Under the pieces are notes generated by a model, which saw only the letters and a program-made list of their open reading frames with translations, did not search any database and had not been told where the DNA came from. A stretch of DNA of 20,197 nt from the IMG/VR virus record IMGVR_UViG_3300033143_000513, positions 1 to 20,197 of that record, one strand, 5' to 3'. Numbering within the stretch: the stretch's first letter is position 1; each line of letters opens with the position of its first letter. Both the position numbers and the translations under genes were made by a program. Shown here piece after piece: positions 3,063-20,197 of this stretch. This stretch comes from a virus.

Positions 3063-3548
3063 TTAGTGCTTACAAATGCAAGCAGTAGTTATTCCACGTT
3101 GTAAACAACTGTTCACGAACGCGTCTTGATATGTTACGAACTCACCATTAGCGTGATAGTAACAAGCTTGACCATACATGTCAGCCCAGAATATTTCCTG
3201 TGCCAACCCAGACAGTCCAGCATCTTGTAAGCTACGAATCTGAGCACGTATTACTTGGTACTCTTCTTCTAAGCTGTAGCCCAAACCTAAGTTCAGGTGT
3301 ATAACGTCATGCCAGAACCTTCCCAGCAAGTTAACAGTTGGTGAGTAAATAGTATGCTCACAACCATCGGTAGTTAACGGTATCCGTCTAACAAGAGCAA
3401 GCTCCGGTCTAAACTTCTCCGTAATAGCGCGGTCAGTCTCAATAAACCAAGACCAACCAGCTTGTTCCAAGAGTATGCTAGTGTTAATGATGAACTTAGT
3501 TAGCTCAGCAATAGCGTTGTCTCGGTGCTCATTCAGTATCTTCTGCAT
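3063..3548 (-). CDS. Unrecognised 161-aa protein with HDxxH motif
   Basis: ATG 3548 has a strong GGAGGA site eight bases upstream. Residues 78-84 read FWHDVIH (H80, D81, H84), followed by an acidic run SLEEEY (92-97) and FWADMYGQACYYH (120-132). The set of His, Asp and Glu residues could form a metal site, but I know no family with this order. There is no signal peptide or membrane segment. It lies between the tiny membrane genes and the 148-aa gene in a close operon. Function unknown. Confidence 0.85.
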   Translation of the reverse strand: MQKILNEHRDNAIAELTKFIINTSILLEQAGWSWFIETDRAITEKFRPELALVRRIPLTTDGCEHTIYSPTVNLLGRFWHDVIHLNLGLGYSLEEEYQVIRAQIRSLQDAGLSGLAQEIFWADMYGQACYYHANGEFVTYQDAFVNSCLQRGITTACICKH

Positions 3549-5203: not shown

Positions 5204-7132
5204 TTACTTATCAAAGTAGTAAGTCTGACCTAATGCACTGATAAGGTGATTAACCTTCTCGCCACGTATCTTCTGAAGCCTACGAGTACCAGAAGCAAAG
5301 AACTGACTAATGTCAATAGCATCATCAAAGTTCTCAGGCTTCAGTTGAGCATTGATTCCATCGAAGTATAAGCCAAGGATGTCTGTACCTTCAGGTAAGT
5401 CAGCACTAGCCTCATTCTTGTAGGAACCAAACAAGTCACGGTATGCACTCTTGATTGCTTGACGTAGTAAGCCCATATCATGAACCGATACCCTGAAACA
5501 GTCATGAACAGCAATTATGTGCTCACAACCAAGTCTCTTCAGGTTAACTACTATCATTCGAGCAACCAGCCCATCAACTCCTTGTACCATATTAACGAAG
5601 CCATTACGTACAAAGTCAGAGGTATTAACGTGTTGAGTGTTCATCTGAAGATTGATAAACTTGTATGACTCTACGTTGTTACGTAAGAACACATCATACT
5701 GAGCTGTATCAAAGTCCATCGCCTCACCCAAGATATTAACCTTCATCTTGTAGTTCATAGCAACCTTAAATCCATCAGGCAGTAGATGACTTACCTTGCC
5801 TTCAATCTTATTAGTATAAGACCTCATTGCATTCCTTACGCTTATCATCTTAGCACCAAAGGATGCTGTTACTGCCTTGTGAAACTCCTTAGCCCTCTTC
5901 TCATTGCCAAGTATCTCATCACCATGTAGGCAATTCCATAACTCAGGTGAGTCCAACTCCTCTGGATTCATGAAAGCCATCCAGCCTTGACCATAGAAGA
6001 TACCCATAAATGGCTTCTTAATGACCTCACGAGTCAGGCCATGAAAGCCAGCTGTATCACAGTAGCCAATACAACGCTGGTATGCATCCTCAAGCTCAAC
6101 GAGTGTGAACCCACAAGCAGCAGCTAACTCACCATCACCAACCATCAAAGCACCCAACTGAGGACCTGAACACTTAGCGTCTAAACCAAATGCCATGCCA
6201 ATGAAGGGCTTAACACCATCCTTGTGTATGTGGTTATGAAGTGCAACCAGTATCTTTGCAGCCTTAACAAATGACCAAGGCTTCTTAACACAGTCACTAT
6301 CCTCATGCTTGATAATGAAGTCAACAGGATGCTGACATGCCTCTTGCACTAATCTACCTCGTGCTTGCTTATCCTTAATGGACACCATATCAGACATCTC
6401 ATGCTTCAACAACTCCATTGCATCCTTTGCATCATAATCCATCTTAACACCATACAAGTCCATCAATGCACGACTACGGTCACTAGCCTGGCCATTCGGA
6501 CCATGACACGATGCTTGATACATCCGACCACGACTGTCACCTTTGAACTCACTTACGTATGCGTCATTGCTATCCATCTTCTCACAACCACGCAATACAT
6601 ATCCCTCTTCATCATCCTTGCCTGACTTACTCAGTACACGTAAGGCAATTGACATCATAGCATCATCAACTGTGTACTTTGTATCCTCCAGAGCATGGAT
6701 AGCCTCTTTGAACAGTTCAGAGTATTTAGTTGGAGCATACCCAAACCTGCGCTCGATGCCATCCATTGCCATTGGTGGAGCATAAGCCTCACTCCGTAGT
6801 TCTAACAACTCAGCCATTCTAGGCCCTACCTTGTCATCCTCTGTGAAGTACTGGGCAGTCTTAAGTGCTACCAGTATCTCTGCTACATCCATTGCATCAT
6901 CAGGCGTATCCTGGCCCTTGATAGACAGCTCGGTTATCTCCAGGCCATCTACGAATGATTCAATGAACATGTCCTCATCATCCATGTACTCCATAGACCC
7001 TACATAGGCTGTAGCCGTGATAAGTGCAATCCTTGGGTTGAGTCCATTGTGGAACAGCTCACTTGCCACTGTAGACAGGATAGCTGATTTGTTAACGTCA
7101 TTTATGTTTACTGCTTCGATTACTGTGTTCAT
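5204..7132 (-). CDS. Compact T7-like single-subunit DNA-dependent RNA polymerase
   Basis: At 642 aa it is much shorter than T7 RNA polymerase (883 aa). The signature motifs are complete. D199-S-R-G-R203-M-Y matches T7 DWRGRVY (421-427). Motif A has D318 in FGLDAKCSGPQ (T7 D537). Motif B has R368, K372 and Y380 with exactly T7 spacing (R627, K631, Y639). Motif C is H543-D544-C-F (T7 HDSF, D812). NMVQGVDG (514-521) aligns with T7 NFVHSQDG, so T7 His784 is replaced by Gln517. Only 198 residues precede the DxRGR motif (420 in T7), so most of the N-terminal promoter-binding domain is missing, and about 40 residues are absent between motifs A and B. It should transcribe phage genes from its own promoters. 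The ribosome site (AAGAG) is weak. Confidence 0.93.
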   Translation of the reverse strand: MNTVIEAVNINDVNKSAILSTVASELFHNGLNPRIALITATAYVGSMEYMDDEDMFIESFVDGLEITELSIKGQDTPDDAMDVAEILVALKTAQYFTEDDKVGPRMAELLELRSEAYAPPMAMDGIERRFGYAPTKYSELFKEAIHALEDTKYTVDDAMMSIALRVLSKSGKDDEEGYVLRGCEKMDSNDAYVSEFKGDSRGRMYQASCHGPNGQASDRSRALMDLYGVKMDYDAKDAMELLKHEMSDMVSIKDKQARGRLVQEACQHPVDFIIKHEDSDCVKKPWSFVKAAKILVALHNHIHKDGVKPFIGMAFGLDAKCSGPQLGALMVGDGELAAACGFTLVELEDAYQRCIGYCDTAGFHGLTREVIKKPFMGIFYGQGWMAFMNPEELDSPELWNCLHGDEILGNEKRAKEFHKAVTASFGAKMISVRNAMRSYTNKIEGKVSHLLPDGFKVAMNYKMKVNILGEAMDFDTAQYDVFLRNNVESYKFINLQMNTQHVNTSDFVRNGFVNMVQGVDGLVARMIVVNLKRLGCEHIIAVHDCFRVSVHDMGLLRQAIKSAYRDLFGSYKNEASADLPEGTDILGLYFDGINAQLKPENFDDAIDISQFFASGTRRLQKIRGEKVNHLISALGQTYYFDK

Positions 7133-8287: not shown

Positions 8288-8617
8288 TTAACCGAACTTC
8301 CAGAGAAGGCCTATGATAGTACTACCACCGACAAGGGCAGCAGCATTCAGAGGTCCACCAATGGCAGATGCAAGCGTAACCATACTCCAGTAAACCCAAG
8401 CCAGTATAGGATGTCCCTTACTAGCTACGCATTTACGTAGGATACGGTGTGCTTGCCGGTCATCTATGCCTTGCTTGTAATTCATCATTACATCATGACG
8501 TAGACAACACTCTTTGAAGTTAAAGTCAGGTGACATTGTGCAGCCACCATCACTCTTGTATCCAAAGGGACTGTTTACTTTCTCTACAGCCCAGTCGTAT
8601 GCTTCTTTATCGTTCAT
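8288..8617 (-). CDS. Small phospholipase A2-like protein with two membrane segments
   Basis: ATG 8617 has a strong AAGGAGA site. Residues 25-42 contain G-C-T-M-S-P-D-F-N-F-K-E-C-C-L-R-H-D, which matches the phospholipase A2 active-site pattern C-C-x-x-H-D (C37, C38, H41, D42), with a GC upstream as in the calcium-loop region. D52/D53 and C63 follow on a predicted second helix, as in the family. Hydrophobic segments at about 70-88 and 91-106 would anchor it in the membrane. It is the last gene of the late operon, where lysis genes are often found. It may cut phospholipids to aid lysis or entry. The typical length of about 110 aa fits; activity is unproven. Confidence 0.7.
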   Translation of the reverse strand: MNDKEAYDWAVEKVNSPFGYKSDGGCTMSPDFNFKECCLRHDVMMNYKQGIDDRQAHRILRKCVASKGHPILAWVYWSMVTLASAIGGPLNAAALVGGSTIIGLLWKFG

Positions 8618-11564: not shown

Positions 11565-12188
11565 TTAAATTAGTGTTGTGTTAAAAGATGTACCAGCGGG
11601 TACTAAGTACTTGTCAGCCATGTAGTGAATTAACTGTCTTTCCCTGACTGTAATATCAATTGCTGATAGGGTTAGTAACAAATCCTGGTTAGCCACAGTA
11701 GTTAAACTTATAGTTCTAGGAACGAAACCTATCAGGATGTTAAGGGCTGAGTACATAGTCTCTATGCCCAAGTCTACACTGTTGAGTATTGAACCTTTAC
11801 ATTGTAGGACTCTTCGGTACTCGTGGTCGCTCAAAGGAGTTACCGAGATACCAGACTGGTCTTCACTTAAGAAGATACCACCAGCAGTAGGGATAGCTTC
11901 ATCAGCCATCTTACCTACACCAGCTGCACCTACGAAACCAAAGTAAATACTTGGGAGTACTACGTCCCTTGACTGGTCAAGTATGTCACCAATAATATTC
12001 AGTTGAGCACCTATTGCATGTTCTAGCATACGTCCGAAGTGGACCTCTTCAATGCTTTGAAAGAGTAAGTCCATCTCATTAATGTAGGCTAGTAGGTATG
12101 CTCTCAGATTTGGGGAATCCTTATACTGACTTAACAGTAGTCCGTCCATAATCTGAGTACCTTTATCCTTCGTGGATACGATAGCCAT
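11565..12188 (-). CDS. Baseplate/tail protein of the DUF2612 type, 207 aa
   Basis: The gene starts one base after the J gene stop, with GGAGACTTAAT before the ATG formed by the end of J. The N-terminus (QYKDSPNLRAYLLAYINEMD, then a helix ending EHAIGAQLNIIGDILDQSR) is typical of the DUF2612 tail proteins found next to baseplate J. These occupy the place of the P2 gpI protein in other myoviruses. It probably links baseplate J to the fibre. The middle carries a glycine-rich loop (GFVGAAGVGKMADEAIPTAG). The assignment rests on N-terminal pattern and gene order. Confidence 0.75.
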   Translation of the reverse strand: MAIVSTKDKGTQIMDGLLLSQYKDSPNLRAYLLAYINEMDLLFQSIEEVHFGRMLEHAIGAQLNIIGDILDQSRDVVLPSIYFGFVGAAGVGKMADEAIPTAGGIFLSEDQSGISVTPLSDHEYRRVLQCKGSILNSVDLGIETMYSALNILIGFVPRTISLTTVANQDLLLTLSAIDITVRERQLIHYMADKYLVPAGTSFNTTLI

Positions 12189-12189
12189 A

Positions 12190-13338
12190 TTAAGTCTCCG
12201 TTATGATTACATTTGCAAGAATAGTACTAGCTGCCTCAACACTTGATATAGGTAAGTTAACAGTACCTGATGGTGATGCGGATAAACCAATAGTTAGTGA
12301 GTTAACCTGAGCTTTACCAAAGGGTGTTATAACAGCAAACAGTCTTGAGTAGATAACATCTTCGTCAACCTGTAGTGCATTGATGTGTGTTATTAAGGCT
12401 TGCTCGATAGATTCCTTGGCACCAGCATTCTCATCATCAAGATAAGTTACGTCAGCACTTATAAATATCGGAACCTCAGTAGCTTCTGTAAAGTTAATGC
12501 TATGTGATACACCTTGGCTATCATCCAGTACAATGTTGGTTGCACCATGTGTAGCACAGGCAGCCGGTTTTGTATTAAGGATTACCCTTGCAATATCTTC
12601 ATCAGTAACAATTCCAAGATGTGCTGCATGTGGTGATGTAGTAACGTGTATTGTATTTGGTGGTACACCATCTACTGTAAGGTTAGTTTCATTACTGTAT
12701 ACAGCTACCTGCTCAAGGCCTAATTCGTACAGGCGAGCTGCCATAGCCTCGTCGGTACTTGTATAGTTCCGTAAGACGGTTCTGTTACGCAAGTTCCGGT
12801 AAGCTGTTTCAGACTGAGCAACGTCACCTTCATTGCCATCAAGGGCTTGGGTCACGCCTGTCCAACCTGATATAACTGTCTTGGCATTTACTAAGGTGCC
12901 AGCAGGTACAGGTATTGCACCGGACACAACAGATACACATAAGACCGATGAAGGTACAGTTGCATCAAATTGTGTTTCAAAGTTGTTACCGGCTCCGTCA
13001 TCGACAAGTGAGCCAGCAGGTACGATAGTATCAGCAACACCATCAAGGGTCACTGTAGCCTGACTACGTGTCGCTGCACCGTATAAGATACCGGTAAGCA
13101 CACCCAGGTTGCGAAGAGCTGCACCAGTTGCCTGACTAGGGTCATAAGCTTTATACACAACAGCCAATTCGTTCCAGGCTTGTGATAGCTCAAGAGACAT
13201 AATCTCAAGCAGTTGACCGTCCGGTGATTCAGGACTGAAGTCAAAGCCTGGGCTTAGTACGTCTAGGTTGTTCTTTATTCTGTCTCGGATGTCATCCAAG
13301 CTCTCTGGGGTAAAACCCTCAGAAGTTAATCCTGCCAT
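12190..13338 (-). CDS. Baseplate wedge protein J
   Basis: I start at ATG 13338, which has GGGGAG at good spacing and overlaps the previous stop as TAATG; an in-frame TTG 15 bases upstream also exists. The protein of 382 aa begins MAGLTSEGFTPESLDDIRDR and contains SPESPDGQLLEIMSLELSQA and YKAYDPSQATGAALRNLGVL, the hallmark N-terminal region of the baseplate J / Mu gp47 family. A central beta domain (IVPAGSLV...) and a C-terminal domain with TYLDDENAGAKESIEQALIT follow, as expected. J forms the wedge core of contractile-tail baseplates together with gp25. Confidence 0.92.
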   Translation of the reverse strand: MAGLTSEGFTPESLDDIRDRIKNNLDVLSPGFDFSPESPDGQLLEIMSLELSQAWNELAVVYKAYDPSQATGAALRNLGVLTGILYGAATRSQATVTLDGVADTIVPAGSLVDDGAGNNFETQFDATVPSSVLCVSVVSGAIPVPAGTLVNAKTVISGWTGVTQALDGNEGDVAQSETAYRNLRNRTVLRNYTSTDEAMAARLYELGLEQVAVYSNETNLTVDGVPPNTIHVTTSPHAAHLGIVTDEDIARVILNTKPAACATHGATNIVLDDSQGVSHSINFTEATEVPIFISADVTYLDDENAGAKESIEQALITHINALQVDEDVIYSRLFAVITPFGKAQVNSLTIGLSASPSGTVNLPISSVEAASTILANVIITET

Positions 13339-13694
13339 TACGTTGCTCCCCAAGGTACACTCAAGTCTATTACTCCAAAGGTTGTTAACGCTGTGAAGGT
13401 AACAGTAAGTATCCTGTTATGTAATACCATATCAAACTCCTCGATGGACTTGACATTGGGTGTGGTTAATATTACCTGCTTGGCCCTCAACTCAATGAGG
13501 AACAGGTCAGGATTCTTTTCATAATCATTTAAGCTTATCCAGCCTAAGCGAGGGTCTAATAACCACTCACCTAAACCTGTAAGGAGCCGAGACTTGACAA
13601 GTTGAACTGTGTATCGTCCGTCTTGTACTCTCTCGACTCCTCCACCGGCAGCTAAGATTAAGTCATGATTGGCTTCATCTAAAGCTAGTTGCAT
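13338..13694 (-). CDS. Baseplate wedge protein, gp25/W-like
   Basis: The protein of 118 aa begins MQLALDEANHDLILAAGGGV. It has LVKSRLLTGLGEWLLDPRLG in the middle and ELRAKQVILTTPNVKSIEEF plus a C-terminal beta-strand pair. The 'L..RL.T..GEW..dP..G' segment and its place just before J identify the gp25-like or DUF2634-like wedge family, which clamps the sheath to the baseplate in contractile tails. AGGAG precedes the ATG. Its length is normal for the family. Confidence 0.85.
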   Translation of the reverse strand: MQLALDEANHDLILAAGGGVERVQDGRYTVQLVKSRLLTGLGEWLLDPRLGWISLNDYEKNPDLFLIELRAKQVILTTPNVKSIEEFDMVLHNRILTVTFTALTTFGVIDLSVPWGAT

Positions 13695-13706: not shown

Positions 13707-14591
13707 TTAAGATGGAGGGCTAGTACTACCAGCACCTGCACCATCAGTCCAAGTATAAGGATGTACATGTGTCTCAAGGTCAATACCATTAACAGACATT
13801 GTACCTGTAGAGGACATAGCACCAGAGCCCATATCAGCAGCTGCACCACCCGCTATAGCAATACCACCAGTAGTAGTAATTGCAGAGGTTGTTACAGTCA
13901 GCAAGTTAGTTACTGCACCGGTAACTGTCAAGGTTCCACCAATAGTCACATCACCAGATATGGCTGTGATTGGTGTAGTTATGTTAGTACCTGAGCTGGC
14001 TGTTATGTTAGCCGTAGCAGTATTAACGTCTGAGTTGTTTGTTGCATTCACAACAGCTTGGTCACAATTGACCTCAACATCAGGTGCGTTAATAGTTAAC
14101 TTGGTAGAACTGGTTATGGTTATGGTCTCATCATCGTTCAATGATATAACTTGCTTCGATGAATCCGGCCCACGCCATTGTGAGTGGGTTGCATGATAAT
14201 CTTTTATGCTTCTCGGTAAGGTGTTTAGTCCTACCAAGGCATAGCCATCATCTTCGCTGAACTGTCTCGACAAGTGAGGCTTAGGTAGACCGGCCAAAGT
14301 GCCAGCTGTATCCAAGTCCTTATACCACCAGTGGTCGTAACCAATCTGACTAAAGAACAACACGCAAGTATCACCAGGCTTTATAGGCATAGTGATAGAC
14401 CAGCCACCACCCGAAGGTGTATGAACTGGCATCTTCTTTATGTTGGTACGTTTAGTAGCTTGGTAGGTCTCATCAGAGTCATGTGTGATTCTCTCAACAC
14501 TAACCAGTACATCAGCAGTTTGGTCTTCAGGATAATAAGCAAGTACTCGGCCAGGTAATATGATGGAGTACTTTTCATTATTAACCATCAT
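13707..14591 (-). CDS. Baseplate spike (gp138-type) with HxH tip
   Basis: The protein of 294 aa starts by ATGA overlap with the gene before. Residues 1-110 (ILPGRVLAYYPEDQTADVLV, then GDTCVLFFSQIGYDHWWY) form the OB-fold N-terminal domain of the gp138 family. A repetitive T/S/A/V-rich part (about 165-265, including many 'ITTP', 'TVTG' steps) should form a triple-stranded beta-helix needle. The end, THVHPYTW, places H275 and H277, like the metal-binding HxH at the apex of P2 and phi92 spikes. Three copies would pierce the outer membrane. This implies a Gram-negative host. Confidence 0.9.
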   Translation of the reverse strand: MMVNNEKYSIILPGRVLAYYPEDQTADVLVSVERITHDSDETYQATKRTNIKKMPVHTPSGGGWSITMPIKPGDTCVLFFSQIGYDHWWYKDLDTAGTLAGLPKPHLSRQFSEDDGYALVGLNTLPRSIKDYHATHSQWRGPDSSKQVISLNDDETITITSSTKLTINAPDVEVNCDQAVVNATNNSDVNTATANITASSGTNITTPITAISGDVTIGGTLTVTGAVTNLLTVTTSAITTTGGIAIAGGAAADMGSGAMSSTGTMSVNGIDLETHVHPYTWTDGAGAGSTSPPS

Positions 14592-15778
14592 AGTAAGTCA
14601 CCTAAGAAGCTGGTGCTACCTGTTGAGCTACCTGATATTTTCGTGATAGTGGTTGGTGAAGACTGAGACAGTGTATCTGTAATAAGACCATCACCATGAC
14701 TGGCAGCACCATCAAGTGCATCATCCACAGTTGGTAAGTCTGTATCAAAGTCTTCCTCAGTTATTGTAGCAAAGCCTGAAGCGTCTGTCTCGTATGCAGC
14801 AGTTGCTCCACAGATAAAACAGTCCAGACCAATACCTAATAACCTTTGACCAAATGACCGGTCTCCGTTAACACCAAGGATTTCGTAAAGGCCACCATAA
14901 ATGTTCTTCTTCAAATCTCCCAGTGCTGTAGTGACAGCTGCATCGACTTCTTCAGTAATTAAGTCAACACCAGACTCAACAAGACAGGCACCTAATACGT
15001 TGGCACCATTTTGTATCCTTGCGTTGAGGTCTCCACCAATCAGAGTAGCTCCGGTCTCGGTATCTGTTATTGTACCGTCCTCACTAATACTACACTCAAA
15101 AGAATGTTCTGAACTACTTGGGTCGAACCCAACAGGGTCATAAGTCATTTTGGCTGGAAGGCCAGCTGGTAACTGAGTATCCAATTGGAATCCAGTAGCC
15201 AGGTCCACTTCAGCTGTTGATAGGCGAGCTTCAGCTGGTACATCATACCCAGCCTGTCTTAACTCCTCAATCTTAGCAGCTCTCTCACTGTCCGGTACAG
15301 GCTCAAAGATAGCAGCTGATATGGATGTCTTATTAACTGTAGAGGCTAACTGAACTTCCTCTCCAGATAATACAAAGGACATCGCATCAGTCATGCCAGC
15401 TTCTTGCTTGGTCTTGAACTTGTTAAATATCACAGGCGCATAGGTATCCAGGTTAGTCACAACAGTACACGATATTGCCTCACGCACTAAAGTTGTTAAC
15501 ATCTCGTGCATAGTACGTGCATTGTTTTGTGAACTATACTCATGGAACTCATTAGATGAAAGCATTTGAGTATTAGTAACCATAGCCGACAAGCTTACCT
15601 TGCGGTTCTCTCGTATAGAGTGGTTGCTGATATTAAACCCTGACTGTACAGGGAACTTAGTTATTTTGTTTGTCACTTCATGGTCTTCAAAGATTACAGA
15701 GTGGAACCGTATTTCAATGAAGTCAGTATCTGCATCATCAAGTTTGAACTTAATGTATGCTTTGTTGGGCGTACTCAT
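14588..15778 (-). CDS. Dit-like / hub-associated baseplate protein, 396 aa
   Basis: ATG 15778 has GAGGT upstream. The N-terminal 100 residues (IEIRFHSVIFEDHEVTNKIT, FPVQSGFNISNHSIRENRKV, SLSAMVTN) match the Dit-like N-terminal domain found in baseplate proteins of several myoviruses. The region 100-150 (LTTLVREAISCTVVTNLDTY, then MSFVLSGEEV) is the usual continuation. The C-terminal half is low in recognisable motif, with four cysteines at about 230-320 (ECS, ACL, CFIC) and a serine- and threonine-rich tail. It lies between the hub and the spike, so it probably surrounds the tail tube end. A LysM domain is not seen. Confidence 0.75.
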   Translation of the reverse strand: MSTPNKAYIKFKLDDADTDFIEIRFHSVIFEDHEVTNKITKFPVQSGFNISNHSIRENRKVSLSAMVTNTQMLSSNEFHEYSSQNNARTMHEMLTTLVREAISCTVVTNLDTYAPVIFNKFKTKQEAGMTDAMSFVLSGEEVQLASTVNKTSISAAIFEPVPDSERAAKIEELRQAGYDVPAEARLSTAEVDLATGFQLDTQLPAGLPAKMTYDPVGFDPSSSEHSFECSISEDGTITDTETGATLIGGDLNARIQNGANVLGACLVESGVDLITEEVDAAVTTALGDLKKNIYGGLYEILGVNGDRSFGQRLLGIGLDCFICGATAAYETDASGFATITEEDFDTDLPTVDDALDGAASHGDGLITDTLSQSSPTTITKISGSSTGSTSFLGDLL

Positions 15779-15786
15779 TAGTTACC

Positions 15787-16749
15787 TCATCTGAACCAGT
15801 TGTAATCGTTATTGGACATTGTGAAACCTTTAGTAGGTGCCACACCAGAAGCAAAGGTAGACCACTCCGCAGTGAAGTTGGAACCCTTGTGTTGTACTTT
15901 ATAGACCTGATACTTACGGAAGCCAGCTACTACGTTCTTGATTAAGTCAGAAGCAACGGTTAAGCTGTCCTCTGAAACTGACGTACTTGCTGTTAACACA
16001 TTAGCTATGTCTATCACAGCCGAAGGTTTTATTTCTGCATCCAGGTTAGAATGTACTTCGATAGTTGAAGGTCCGAGTTTAGGATTGGACCTCATGTTAT
16101 CTGTATTTAAAACTATTGTGCCTTCCTCAGTTTCTAGTGAGGTTGCACTTTGATTCTTGGGATTAACCTGATACATTACTATCAAGTCAAAGCCATCAAT
16201 ATATTGTTGGAACCTATACTGCTTACCAAGTATCTGAATGCAGGACAAGACAGAGCCCTCAAGCTTTGCAGTTACATTGTCTGGGACAGTGTCTACATAG
16301 TTATCTGGGAACTGCTTGTATATTACATTGCCATCATACAACACCTCATGCATTAAGTCGTCCATGCAATTTTTAAGTGATGGTTGTTCTACATTGATAC
16401 TTACCTGCTTCTCAAGAGTGGTTCGCTTTAACGAAGAGTAACAGTACAACTTAGTAATGTTATCCGGTACATTAAACTCATTGGTAGCATTGCTAAGGTA
16501 CAGATGTTTAGCCAAGATAACTTCCTTGCCTCCATGCAGGGAAGTAGTTATGGTAACATAGTTTTCGCCATTCATTAACTTCTTGGTTGTCTCAGTATTC
16601 AGATTATAAATCTCAATCTTAGCACGTTGCCAACCAGCAATGTCTCGTATATCAAAATCAATACGTAGGCTATCCGATTCAAATATAATGGTGTTATCCC
16701 TAGACTCAACCTTCAATCTTACGTACTGACCAAATCTAATCTTTGCCAT
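15787..16749 (-). CDS. Baseplate hub protein, 320 aa
   Basis: The ribosome site AGGAG lies in the last codons of the preceding gene. The protein begins MAKIRFGQYVRLKVESRDNT. It then has IDFDIRDIAGWQRAKIEIYN and LNTETTKKLMNGENYVTITT, the beta-rich start typical of P2 gpD/T4 gp27-like hub proteins in this phage group. The middle includes LSCIQILGKQYRFQQYIDGF, like the second barrel of hub proteins. It forms the base for the spike encoded downstream. No muramidase or peptidase domain is fused to it. Confidence 0.8.
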   Translation of the reverse strand: MAKIRFGQYVRLKVESRDNTIIFESDSLRIDFDIRDIAGWQRAKIEIYNLNTETTKKLMNGENYVTITTSLHGGKEVILAKHLYLSNATNEFNVPDNITKLYCYSSLKRTTLEKQVSINVEQPSLKNCMDDLMHEVLYDGNVIYKQFPDNYVDTVPDNVTAKLEGSVLSCIQILGKQYRFQQYIDGFDLIVMYQVNPKNQSATSLETEEGTIVLNTDNMRSNPKLGPSTIEVHSNLDAEIKPSAVIDIANVLTASTSVSEDSLTVASDLIKNVVAGFRKYQVYKVQHKGSNFTAEWSTFASGVAPTKGFTMSNNDYNWFR

Positions 16750-16751
16750 TA

Positions 16752-19700
16752 TTATTCTCCTGTGTTGGTATCATGAATGTATTCATCATATACCACGTTA
16801 CCATTATCTTGTACTTGTACGCTAGTACCATCTTTGTTTACATCTACCTTGATGTCGAAGTTCTGGACTGTATCCTTATCCTTTACAGCATCCTGTGAAA
16901 CTATAGGGCCAATACCTGTAGATACTAAATCAGAAGTATGTGCTGGTGCTATTGCAGCTCCAGGTAAGCTCCTGTCAATTATACCTTTGGCATTGTTAGT
17001 AATGGCTTGAGCCTTGGTAGGTGTTAGACCTTCAATCTTGTTAGGTGTAACCATCTCACCAACAGTCTCACCGATGAGCTCACCACCAAGTGATAAAGCT
17101 CCACCAATTAACTGACTAGCTCCATCTATAGATAAGAAGTCACCAATAGTCTTAAAGCTTTCACCAATCATACCAGCAGAGCCAGTAGTGGTAGATGCAG
17201 CTTCACCGAGAAGTTGTTTGCCACGTTGAACTTCATACATTCCACCGGCAACTCTACGTCCACCTCGGATGTCAATTTCAGTATCCATGACAGTAGCCAG
17301 GTTTACACCTTTGACTTCATCAGCAGCAAAGGCCATCTCTCTCAAGCCACCTGGAAGTTTATCACCAAGTACTTTACGCATAGCCGGGCTTAAGCCTTGC
17401 ATCATGCTAGAAACTTTCTGTACTACTCCACGATTGTCAAGACCACGCCAGTCTTCCAATGAACCTATATCAACACCGGCCAGTTCTGGATTGTCTCCGA
17501 TAGCAGCCAGTAAAGGTGCATAGGTAGATGTCACAAATGGTTCAACACCCATTGGGGTATTCAAGCCAGATACTAAATCACCAGCACCTGCAACTACAGC
17601 GTCAACTTGCTTGTCAGTAAGCTGAGCACCACGCAGTGCCACACGAGTACCACGAAGTTCTTCAGCCGACATACCAACACGAGCTGCTAACCTTCCCTCA
17701 TCGAGAACGTCTTCAGTCTTGCCAGTCATACCAGAGCCGATACCAGACATAACCTGTGCTGCTTTCCTTGCAGATGCAGCGAAGTGGTTAATCATCTTAG
17801 AAGCTCGGAAAGATGACTCGGCTAATTCCTTATGACCTCGTGCAGTTTCAGCATCCCTCTTCCTGTTTTCAAGGTGAGCTTCATCTTCAACTTCACTAGC
17901 ATCTTTCAACTGATACATTTGTGCAGAGACTTCCTTAGCCATACGCATGTCAGAGACCTTCTTACGTGCAGCTTTATTTACCGCACTCTCTGGTGGCCCT
18001 ATGAAGGCCATGTCCTTAATACTATCCTTGTCCTCACTAAGAACTTTCTCAAGTAAACTTTTACCCAAGGCCTGTTTCTCAGTAGGTGGTCCCATTAAGT
18101 CTTCTTCTTTGAGTGCAGTAATAACCTCTTCTATTACATTACTCTTGTCATTAAATACTTCACCAGCCACGTTAGGTCGGGAGGCAACACGTTTTGCTCT
18201 TTTATTAGCATTGATAGCACCTTGCAATTCTTGTACCTCCTTTCTAGTAGATAGTCCTCCAGCTAAGTCAATAGCAGTTTGACCACTCTCAAGTAATTCA
18301 TCTACTCTTGCTTGGTCGTATTGGACTACGTTGTATTCATAATCACCAGCTTCACCGTATTGGTCACGAGCGAAGAAGTGTACTTGGGTCTCACCGGTAA
18401 CAGCCATCTGCAATTGCATCTGGTCATTGTACTTTTTAGTGGAACCTCGGTATGTTGATTTCTGTAGCGTCTTAAGTTCTAGTAAGCCAGCAGAGGAACC
18501 GTCAGGATTAAACAATCTACCATCAGGGGATGCACCAAAGCCTGGAAGCTTCGGGTTAGTCTCAAAGAAAGCTTCTTCATAAGTCAGTCCTTTGCCTTGT
18601 GTGGCCAGGAAAGCTTGAAGTGTTGCTTGCTCTTGTCTGTTACCTTTACCGGTAGCATCATTGCCTACAAAGCCTTCAGATTGGAATGAGCCTTCTGGCG
18701 TATACTGTGAGTGGTAGCCCATCTGTTCACGCTTTATGTTCAGGGCCATCTTAGAGACACCGTCCTTAGCACCCAGCAGGCTGATAGATGAAGCAGATAG
18801 TAAACCTCTTCGTTCAGCTTTCCATGCAGCAGAGCCCTGTTCAGCTCTTCCTTTAGCTCCAGTTAAGTAGCTTTGCTGTGCAGTAGGTGGCCCGACAAGT
18901 TCATCATCGAAGTCACCCATTACCATGTCGATAGCAGTATCCATAGGAGTGCCTTCAGCCATCAGGTCACTTACCTTCTGCTCAAATTCGGCACTGGATG
19001 ACAGGCCAAAGTTATGTCCAAAGGCCATGTTTTGTGAGCCTTCTAGTCTTTGACCCGCTGGTATAACCTTTGGAACGAAGTCCTCATCAGCACCTACACG
19101 AGCCAGGTTAGCACTAGGTGTGGCACCTGGGTCATCAGGAGAGTCAGCCCAGTCTAAGCCAAGCACACTAATACGTTCACGTATATTCTGCATTGCCTCA
19201 TACTCAGAAGCCACTGCTCGAAAACCTTTACCGGTTCTCTTGTTGCCATAGGCTTCATCGGAACTGTCAACGAACTGCTCTTTCATTATTTGAGTAGCTT
19301 CAAAGTACTGGTCACGGAACTCATTAAACTGTTCACGCTTCCCAAGCTTCTGTGCTTCCCACTCAGCGTCTGTAAAGTCCTTTCTCTTGCCCTGTATAGG
19401 GAAGAAGGTATTAACGCGACTGGGGTCCATGAAGAAAGCCTTATCACCCATCGAGGCTAAGTCACCACGAGCTTCAGCAATAGCAAAGCCCATAGTAGTA
19501 AATGGAGTGCCTTGAGGATTACGACCTTTGCCTATGGTAGGTATTAGTCCGTCTATCCGTAACTCATTAGGTAATGGTACAGCAGCATCCTGGCCTTTGT
19601 AGCCTGTGCCTGTAACCATCTGGTTAATAACAGCCTCTGTGGTGTCCTGAAGGAGGCCTGAGTAACGCGCACCTTCTCTGCTAACCCTTGGGTCGATTAA

Positions 19701-20197
19701 GGTATCAGCGAACTCCTGCGCGAACTGGTAAGCTCCTACGAGGCCTTCGGCTGAAGCACCCACGTTCTGACCATCAACATTACCTGTTAACCGGCCACCG
19801 GCTCCAGAGACTTCATAATTCTCCGCAGTGGTTCCCATCATGCTCAAAATCATATTACGGTCTTTTTGAGAACGGGATGCACCATAGGGAGTTACCCCTT
19901 CAGATACTGGTACTTCATTCTTATAATCGAAGTAGCCAGAGCGTCTTAGTTGACTCTTCATCTTGCCAGCCATAGCAGCAGGTGACTCACCGGTAACATT
20001 GGTGAAGGTCTCAACAGCTGTGTCAGTATCAAAGTCCATGCTCTTATCTTCTAGGATGTTAATCGCTAGGTGAATTTGAGGCTCTGATAAGTTACTGAAC
20101 CTGAACGCTTGTAAGTCACCGGAGGTAATACCACCAGTACCATCAGCAGGAGCATGGCTTGCCTTTAGAGCTTCCATAGTTGCTTCAGTGTCAGCCT
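16752..20197 (-). CDS. Giant virion-type protein with embedded YqaJ-like nuclease domain, 5' end outside window
   Basis: The frame is open to the window edge. ATG 20177 has no ribosome site, so it is probably internal, and I number residues from it (1141 aa visible). Residues 449-640 are a YqaJ / lambda-exonuclease-like domain: W452-KAERR-G (entry motif), SASS (461-464), GNRQE with E515, SPDG with D552, LLELK with E567 and K569, and QMQLQ (586-590). All active-site residues are present. The rest is helical, with coiled-coil-like parts (740-800) and a glycine-rich hydrophobic part (1000-1045) ending in IHDTNTGE. The gene sits directly before the hub gene, where tape measure or ejected proteins are found. 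Three GPP motifs flank the nuclease. It may be ejected into the cell with DNA; that is inference. Confidence 0.8.
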   Translation of the reverse strand, partial: ADTEATMEALKASHAPADGTGGITSGDLQAFRFSNLSEPQIHLAINILEDKSMDFDTDTAVETFTNVTGESPAAMAGKMKSQLRRSGYFDYKNEVPVSEGVTPYGASRSQKDRNMILSMMGTTAENYEVSGAGGRLTGNVDGQNVGASAEGLVGAYQFAQEFADTLIDPRVSREGARYSGLLQDTTEAVINQMVTGTGYKGQDAAVPLPNELRIDGLIPTIGKGRNPQGTPFTTMGFAIAEARGDLASMGDKAFFMDPSRVNTFFPIQGKRKDFTDAEWEAQKLGKREQFNEFRDQYFEATQIMKEQFVDSSDEAYGNKRTGKGFRAVASEYEAMQNIRERISVLGLDWADSPDDPGATPSANLARVGADEDFVPKVIPAGQRLEGSQNMAFGHNFGLSSSAEFEQKVSDLMAEGTPMDTAIDMVMGDFDDELVGPPTAQQSYLTGAKGRAEQGSAAWKAERRGLLSASSISLLGAKDGVSKMALNIKREQMGYHSQYTPEGSFQSEGFVGNDATGKGNRQEQATLQAFLATQGKGLTYEEAFFETNPKLPGFGASPDGRLFNPDGSSAGLLELKTLQKSTYRGSTKKYNDQMQLQMAVTGETQVHFFARDQYGEAGDYEYNVVQYDQARVDELLESGQTAIDLAGGLSTRKEVQELQGAINANKRAKRVASRPNVAGEVFNDKSNVIEEVITALKEEDLMGPPTEKQALGKSLLEKVLSEDKDSIKDMAFIGPPESAVNKAARKKVSDMRMAKEVSAQMYQLKDASEVEDEAHLENRKRDAETARGHKELAESSFRASKMINHFAASARKAAQVMSGIGSGMTGKTEDVLDEGRLAARVGMSAEELRGTRVALRGAQLTDKQVDAVVAGAGDLVSGLNTPMGVEPFVTSTYAPLLAAIGDNPELAGVDIGSLEDWRGLDNRGVVQKVSSMMQGLSPAMRKVLGDKLPGGLREMAFAADEVKGVNLATVMDTEIDIRGGRRVAGGMYEVQRGKQLLGEAASTTTGSAGMIGESFKTIGDFLSIDGASQLIGGALSLGGELIGETVGEMVTPNKIEGLTPTKAQAITNNAKGIIDRSLPGAAIAPAHTSDLVSTGIGPIVSQDAVKDKDTVQNFDIKVDVNKDGTSVQVQDNGNVVYDEYIHDTNTGE

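Follow-up and report, generated by a model that had tools for sequence, protein, structure and literature searches.

A fragment of 20,197 bp from IMG/VR, referred to in the following as the window, encodes at one end a giant protein that, judging by sequence and gene context, serves as the tape measure protein (TMP) in a phage with a contractile tail. Inside this TMP lies a domain that, according to structure prediction, has a lambda-exonuclease fold with a PD-(D/E)XK core, and that by its sequence and model looks like an intact 5'→3', 5'-phosphate-dependent exonuclease. Sequence comparisons indicate that the arrangement is not an oddity of one phage, but is conserved in the Chaseviridae and their relatives.

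The minus-strand reading frame at 16752–20195 is open for 1147 codons up to the window edge, or 1141 codons when counted from the first ATG. The N-terminus is cut by the window end; in the nearest relative, locus L002 (85% identity to the window protein), the protein has 1195 residues and starts upstream of that ATG. The 1147-residue frame is used for numbering below, except where stated. The protein was divided as follows:

16752..20195, minus strand: TMP with an internal lambda-exonuclease domain (ORF, gene order, homologues and the upstream chaperone in relatives)
18843..20195, minus strand: N-terminal part of the TMP, predicted to be mostly helical (full-length AlphaFold model; no Pfam match)
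18276..18842, minus strand: YqaJ/lambda-exonuclease domain, residues 452–640 of the 1147-residue frame (Pfam, alignment to lambda exonuclease, AlphaFold, Foldseek and invariant columns)
16755..18275, minus strand: C-terminal part of the TMP, predicted to be helical, with a three-stranded beta element at its end (AlphaFold, Pfam)

The AlphaFold model of the full-length protein consisted of helices apart from the exonuclease domain and the C-terminal three-stranded element (residues 1113–1141, bases 16773–16859), with a mean pLDDT of 62 and low confidence outside the exonuclease domain. A 19-residue hydropathy scan found no transmembrane segments in the TMPs of the window, L002, L003 or the phage PP101, and borderline ones in those of L098, L099 and L129.

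Residues 458–601 matched the Pfam family PF09588 (YqaJ) with an E-value of 6.9e-10, covering profile positions 2–148 of 150; the score of 39.8 bits lies above the cut-off of 22 and rules out a chance match. A PHROG search of the TMP returned a RecE-like exonuclease (E 7e-11), and phmmer with the window protein alone as the query reached the exonuclease LHK-Exo at 6e-4. A sequence profile of the domain matched LHK-Exo at 1e-74 and lambda exonuclease at 5e-34; these are not the window protein's own values, because the profile also includes standalone exonucleases. When the domain was modeled by AlphaFold from an alignment of 61 domains, the mean pLDDT was 93.9, and the best PDB matches found by Foldseek were LHK-Exo (3sz4, 3syy) and lambda exonuclease (3sm4, 3slp, 1avq), with E-values of about 1e-10 to 1e-7.

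All seven lambda exonuclease residues R28, S35, E85, D119, E129, K131 and Q157 aligned with identical residues in the window TMP (R462, S469, E522, D558, E573, K575 and Q592, respectively). We take E85, D119, E129, K131 and Q157 to be catalytic and R28 and S35 to form the 5'-phosphate pocket; since all seven are kept, the catalytic centre and the pocket both appear intact at the sequence level. Loss of the catalytic residues was ruled out in the same way, all of them being present. The original prediction, made from the DNA letters, had proposed a lambda-exonuclease-like domain with a complete active site, which agrees with the PF09588 match and the seven retained residues. Of the positions it gave, in the 1141-residue numbering, D552, E567 and K569 were correct, whereas the first glutamate is E516, residue 515 being a glutamine. 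It had also named two outcomes that would speak against it: a predicted structure lacking the PD-(D/E)XK core, which AlphaFold and Foldseek did find, and a frameshift placing the domain in a separate gene. The latter reading fails, because the domain is in frame with both flanks and no stop intervenes here or in the full-length relatives. The fusion is continuous in the window contig and in nearly all relatives, which rules out a frameshift artefact. The exception is L108 (L108:2675-6311), where the TMP seemingly occupies two overlapping frames of 432 and 786 residues, split upstream of the exonuclease domain by either a sequencing error or a genuine frameshift.

The original prediction had put the giant ORF in the place of a tape measure or ejected protein. 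Its assignment as the TMP is supported by gene order and by a heptamer for −1 frameshifting that is conserved in the preceding gene. In L002, L003 and L004, the order is sheath, tube, two overlapping chaperone frames, giant gene and hub, followed, where the contig extends that far, by genes for Dit-like, spike, gp25-like, gpJ and gpI proteins. In these loci and across the survey, the giant gene is the largest of the tail cluster and lies between the tube/chaperone and the hub/baseplate genes. A tail-chaperone gene with a −1 frameshift normally precedes the TMP gene. The chaperone region of the window phage lies beyond the window edge, so the frameshift evidence comes from the loci of relatives: the gene before the giant one contained an in-frame TTTTTTC slippery heptamer in 21 of 22 related loci, spread across the Chaseviridae and relatives (for example L002:3125 and L003:6706, plus 19 others). 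Past the heptamer, in these 21 loci, the −1 frame stays open for 78–95 codons and the zero frame stops within 13–36. No recognised slippery heptamer was found in the chaperone gene of L114. In phage Mangalitsa (L011:6696-6927), the annotated start of the TMP appears, judged by its homologues, to be placed about 74 codons too far downstream, and the frame is open upstream of it.

Directly downstream of the TMP gene, the window continues with a series of baseplate genes and, further on, an RNA polymerase gene:

15787..16749, minus strand: baseplate hub protein, directly downstream of the TMP (PHROG 196, E 2e-16)
14588..15778, minus strand: Dit-like tail protein (Pfam Dit_like, E 5.7e-20)
13707..14591, minus strand: baseplate spike/assembly protein (PHROG 3216, E 2.5e-5; Pfam PF18352, E 2.2e-15)
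13338..13694, minus strand: gp25/gpW-like baseplate wedge protein (PHROG 120, E 2.1e-18)
12190..13353, minus strand: gpJ-like baseplate wedge protein (PHROG 6, E 5.8e-48; 33% identity to Chaseviridae)
11565..12188, minus strand: gpI-like baseplate protein (position and similarity; PHROG 587, E 4.4e-22, "structural protein")
5204..7132, minus strand: T7-type single-subunit RNA polymerase (PHROG 414, E 5.8e-32)

A T7-type RNA polymerase is a hallmark of the Chaseviridae (PMC8472413). The window polymerase has only 642 residues, with a weak match to Pfam and a strong one to PHROG, and its gene comes after the tail genes, as on circularised Chaseviridae maps. Two further minus-strand genes were seen. 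That at 8288–8617, adjoining the tail-fibre end of the operon, encodes a small protein that contains the phospholipase-A2-like motif CCLRHD and whose match to the Pfam prokaryotic PLA2 family was weak (E 0.006) and below the cut-off. That at 3063–3548 encodes a conserved phage protein of unknown function (phrog_33646, E 3e-22).

The window gpJ is nearest to that of the Chaseviridae, with which the window also shares the contractile tail module, the T7-type RNA polymerase and the gene order. When the window TMP was used as the query, no match was found among 50,697 phage records, and a search for gpJ in bacterial genomes returned none. Given the lack of a TMP match in those records and a gpJ identity of only about 33%, the window phage probably belongs to a related family-level lineage without isolates, rather than to a known genus.

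Relatives were collected with the gpJ-like protein (12190..13353) as the query. In all 30 gpJ-bearing IMG/VR contigs whose TMP slot is occupied by a large ORF, that ORF contains a YqaJ domain; in four gpJ relatives that are among the most distant, the upstream ORFs have only about 490–590 residues and contain no YqaJ domain. The domain is also present in the TMP-slot proteins of the Chaseviridae (phrog_19855), including AC4HA13_0067 of phage 4HA13, gp67 of PP101 and gp68 of Mangalitsa, as well as gp09 of Shewanella phage SppYZU05 (Nefertitivirinae) and gp34 of Aeromonas phage ZPAH14 (Shantouvirus). The homologues with the same fusion, for which the original prediction had suggested a search, were thus found both in the Chaseviridae and in related IMG/VR contigs. 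The Chaseviridae TMPs have been annotated variously as tail fibre, virion structural protein, endonuclease or tape measure, and some database records carry the automatic labels exonuclease, yqaJ or endonuclease for such proteins. A C-terminal SLT transglycosylase domain was present in the Cleopatravirinae TMPs examined and in 11 of 34 TMPs overall; in three Chaseviridae loci (L010, L011 and L012), it is the SLT lytic transglycosylase at the C-terminus of the same TMP. Pfam found no SLT domain in the window TMP, unlike in the Chaseviridae, which leaves the tail peptidoglycan hydrolase of the window clade unaccounted for.

An alignment of the 34 TMPs (13–86% identity to the window protein), which is unreliable outside the domain for the most distant members, contained twelve invariant columns, all within the exonuclease domain: Q453, W458, R462, S469, G518, E522, D558, E573, K575, Q592, Q594 and M597. 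In every pair compared, the domain was more conserved than the rest of the TMP, for example 71 versus 48% and 40 versus 18%. By these sequence measures, the exonuclease domain is the part of the TMP under the strongest constraint. In a tree of the domain, all TMP domains fell into one well-supported group (100/97), together with one standalone protein on a long branch. Comparison of the flanks of the two TMP groups by hhalign revealed no similarity (probability under 1%). A single origin of the exonuclease–TMP fusion is likely from the tree but unproven.

Twelve long related contigs (eleven of 49–59 kb and one of 30 kb) were searched for other recombination genes. Each of the 12 contained exactly one YqaJ-type domain, always within an ORF of 1148–1313 residues, and neither RecT nor ERF was found in any of them (0/12). 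Without RecT/ERF and without a second YqaJ-type domain in these contigs, an ordinary Red/RecET exonuclease was ruled out. An annealing partner is customary for the YqaJ family but does not define the fold, and the window itself covers only a fragment of its genome. A RecBCD inhibitor of the T7 gp5.9 type is encoded by PP101 and by 5 of the 12 related contigs, and PP101 also encodes an SSB, a ligase and a separate 5'–3' exonuclease (gp43). The genome of 4HA13 has a predicted direct terminal repeat of 3120 bp (PMC9699118).

Published data also bear on the presence of the protein in virions. Mass spectrometry (LC-MS/MS) identified the TMP of 4HA13 in virions; in the legend to the chromatograms of Figure 7, which names the top twelve proteins, only the major capsid protein comes before it (PMC9699118). 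From the order of the accessions, which links the gi number to the locus, we infer that this TMP is AC4HA13_0067 (our locus L016), the protein that carries the YqaJ domain. The tails of Chaseviridae-type phages thus probably contain a DNA exonuclease.

In PP101, the TMP is longer than its ruler function would require. The ruler length per TMP residue is usually about 0.15 nm. At this value, the PP101 tail of about 132 nm (PMC6989608) leaves about 400 of the 1279 residues of the PP101 TMP beyond the ruler, which would roughly correspond to two enzyme domains and their linkers. The bore of the tail tube is about 4 nm (PMC9022992), into which a folded domain hardly fits, so that a step of unfolding and refolding would be needed. 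Probably, the domain is either unfolded in the tube or placed at one end of it. Lambda exonuclease forms a toroid (title of PDB entry 1avq). Cryo-EM of some tails shows three copies of the TMP, and if the TMP of these phages were also trimeric, an exonuclease ring around the DNA would be an attractive, if speculative, idea.

We propose that the TMP-borne exonuclease domain enters the cell with the DNA, resects the incoming 5' ends, aids circularisation and blocks RecBCD, a reading to which we give slightly less than an even chance. The domain would be kept in or at the tail tube in an unfolded or sterically silent form. Upon contraction, the TMP would exit before the DNA and reach the periplasm, inner membrane or cytoplasm, where the refolded domain could load onto the free duplex ends of the entering genome. 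Removal of the 5' strands would expose single-stranded 3' overhangs inside the terminal repeats; such overhangs would be poor substrates for RecBCD and could anneal to give a circular genome. The exonuclease activity, the ejection and the substrate are all proposed steps and represent our best guess. The model is supported by the terminal repeat of 4HA13, by the gp5.9-type RecBCD inhibitors and by the SSB and ligase of PP101. It is weakened by gp43 of PP101, a separate 5'–3' exonuclease that could process the ends, and by the fact that SSB was recognised but no protein for annealing. It is also conceivable that the TMP halts in the periplasm and never meets the DNA ends in the cytoplasm.

The original prediction had offered two roles for the domain, processing of the incoming genome ends and attack on host or rival DNA, of which the former fits better. 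Enzymes of the lambda-exonuclease type require a free 5'-phosphorylated duplex end, and attack on host or rival DNA fits poorly for this reason: such ends are scarce in an intact chromosome and present on incoming phage DNA. Moreover, there are only a few copies of the TMP per virion. There is precedent for the injection of large multi-domain virion proteins that include DNases (polyvalent proteins, PMC5512222), but a delivered domain that degrades the host chromosome or the DNA of competing phages or plasmids nevertheless seems to us improbable. We are even more sceptical of the idea that the fold is a relic that has lost its activity and serves as a spacer in the ruler. The roughly 400 residues of the PP101 TMP that are not ruler do suggest that a globular insert is tolerated, but the catalytic residues are invariant in 34 proteins whose flanks have lost detectable similarity, so we consider this very unlikely.

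The invariance of the 5'-phosphate pocket raises another prospect, that the domain acts mainly as a clamp, its pocket (R462 and S469, as invariant as the catalytic residues) binding the genome end that goes first, either while it is still in the tail or as it is being transferred, and thereby tethering or gating the DNA, with catalysis secondary, for example to free the tether by cutting. The location of the TMP between head and baseplate, beside the DNA path (PMC9022992), is in keeping with this, but invariance extends to the lysine and to the D/E residues that bind metal, which would not be needed for DNA binding alone; we regard the clamp as unlikely, if worth keeping in mind. A role before assembly appears somewhat less probable still. 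In that case, the free TMP would be the phage's only lambda-type exonuclease in the producing cell, acting in late recombination, concatemer processing or breakdown of host DNA, and its presence in the tail would be incidental. This would match the finding that the 12 related contigs contain no YqaJ-type domain elsewhere, but those contigs have no RecT/ERF partner, and PP101 has another 5'–3' exonuclease. Furthermore, the gene is in a structural operon and is likely to be expressed late, and the fusion to the TMP, for which a cytosolic role has no need, is kept in all close relatives that have the slot.

To return to end resection, a DNA exonuclease within the ruler, whose active-site residues belong to the only twelve that never vary among these TMPs, would imply that some of the DNA-processing machinery enters together with the genome. 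It could be that a whole family of contractile phages carries its recombination-type 5'→3' exonuclease in the ruler, delivers it along with the DNA and resects incoming ends before any phage gene is expressed, as a virion-borne end-processing or anti-RecBCD machine; we entertain this broader view tentatively and would lean somewhat against it. It opens two questions to experiment: by what means the ends of an incoming phage genome escape RecBCD until the early genes are expressed, and whether TMPs gain access to the cytoplasm. The cultured E. coli phages 4HA13, Mangalitsa and flopper (K-12 MG1655) make the idea of an exonuclease-bearing TMP directly testable.

To our knowledge, the enzyme-bearing TMPs described so far act on the cell wall, and we know of none that acts on DNA. 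A search, mostly outside subscription journals, found no publication on an exonuclease domain in a TMP; an enzyme in a TMP is thus already known, and a DNA exonuclease there looks new. The closest counterparts are the TMPs of the Chaseviridae, which occupy the same slot, have about 1200–1290 residues and contain a central YqaJ domain with the same catalytic residues. They have no detectable similarity to the window TMP beyond that domain, and those of the Cleopatravirinae end in an SLT domain that the window clade lacks. With lambda exonuclease, LHK-Exo and RecE (PF09588), the window domain has in common the fold, the catalytic residues and the 5'-phosphate pocket, but the known YqaJ enzymes are free and cytoplasmic, usually with a RecT/Bet partner, whereas the window domain is part of a virion protein and has no such partner. 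Polyvalent and other ejected proteins (Iyer 2017, PMC5512222), such as P1 DarB/DdrB and T4 Alt, are likewise virion enzymes that act early on DNA or the host; most of these are packaged in the head, unlike the tail TMP described here, and the text of PMC5512222 mentions neither YqaJ, lambda exonuclease nor tape measure. The TMP of mycobacteriophage TM4, with its embedded peptidoglycan hydrolase motif (PMC1796659), resembles the window protein in having a catalytic domain within the TMP, but unlike the cell-wall enzymes of other TMPs, the window domain should act on DNA.
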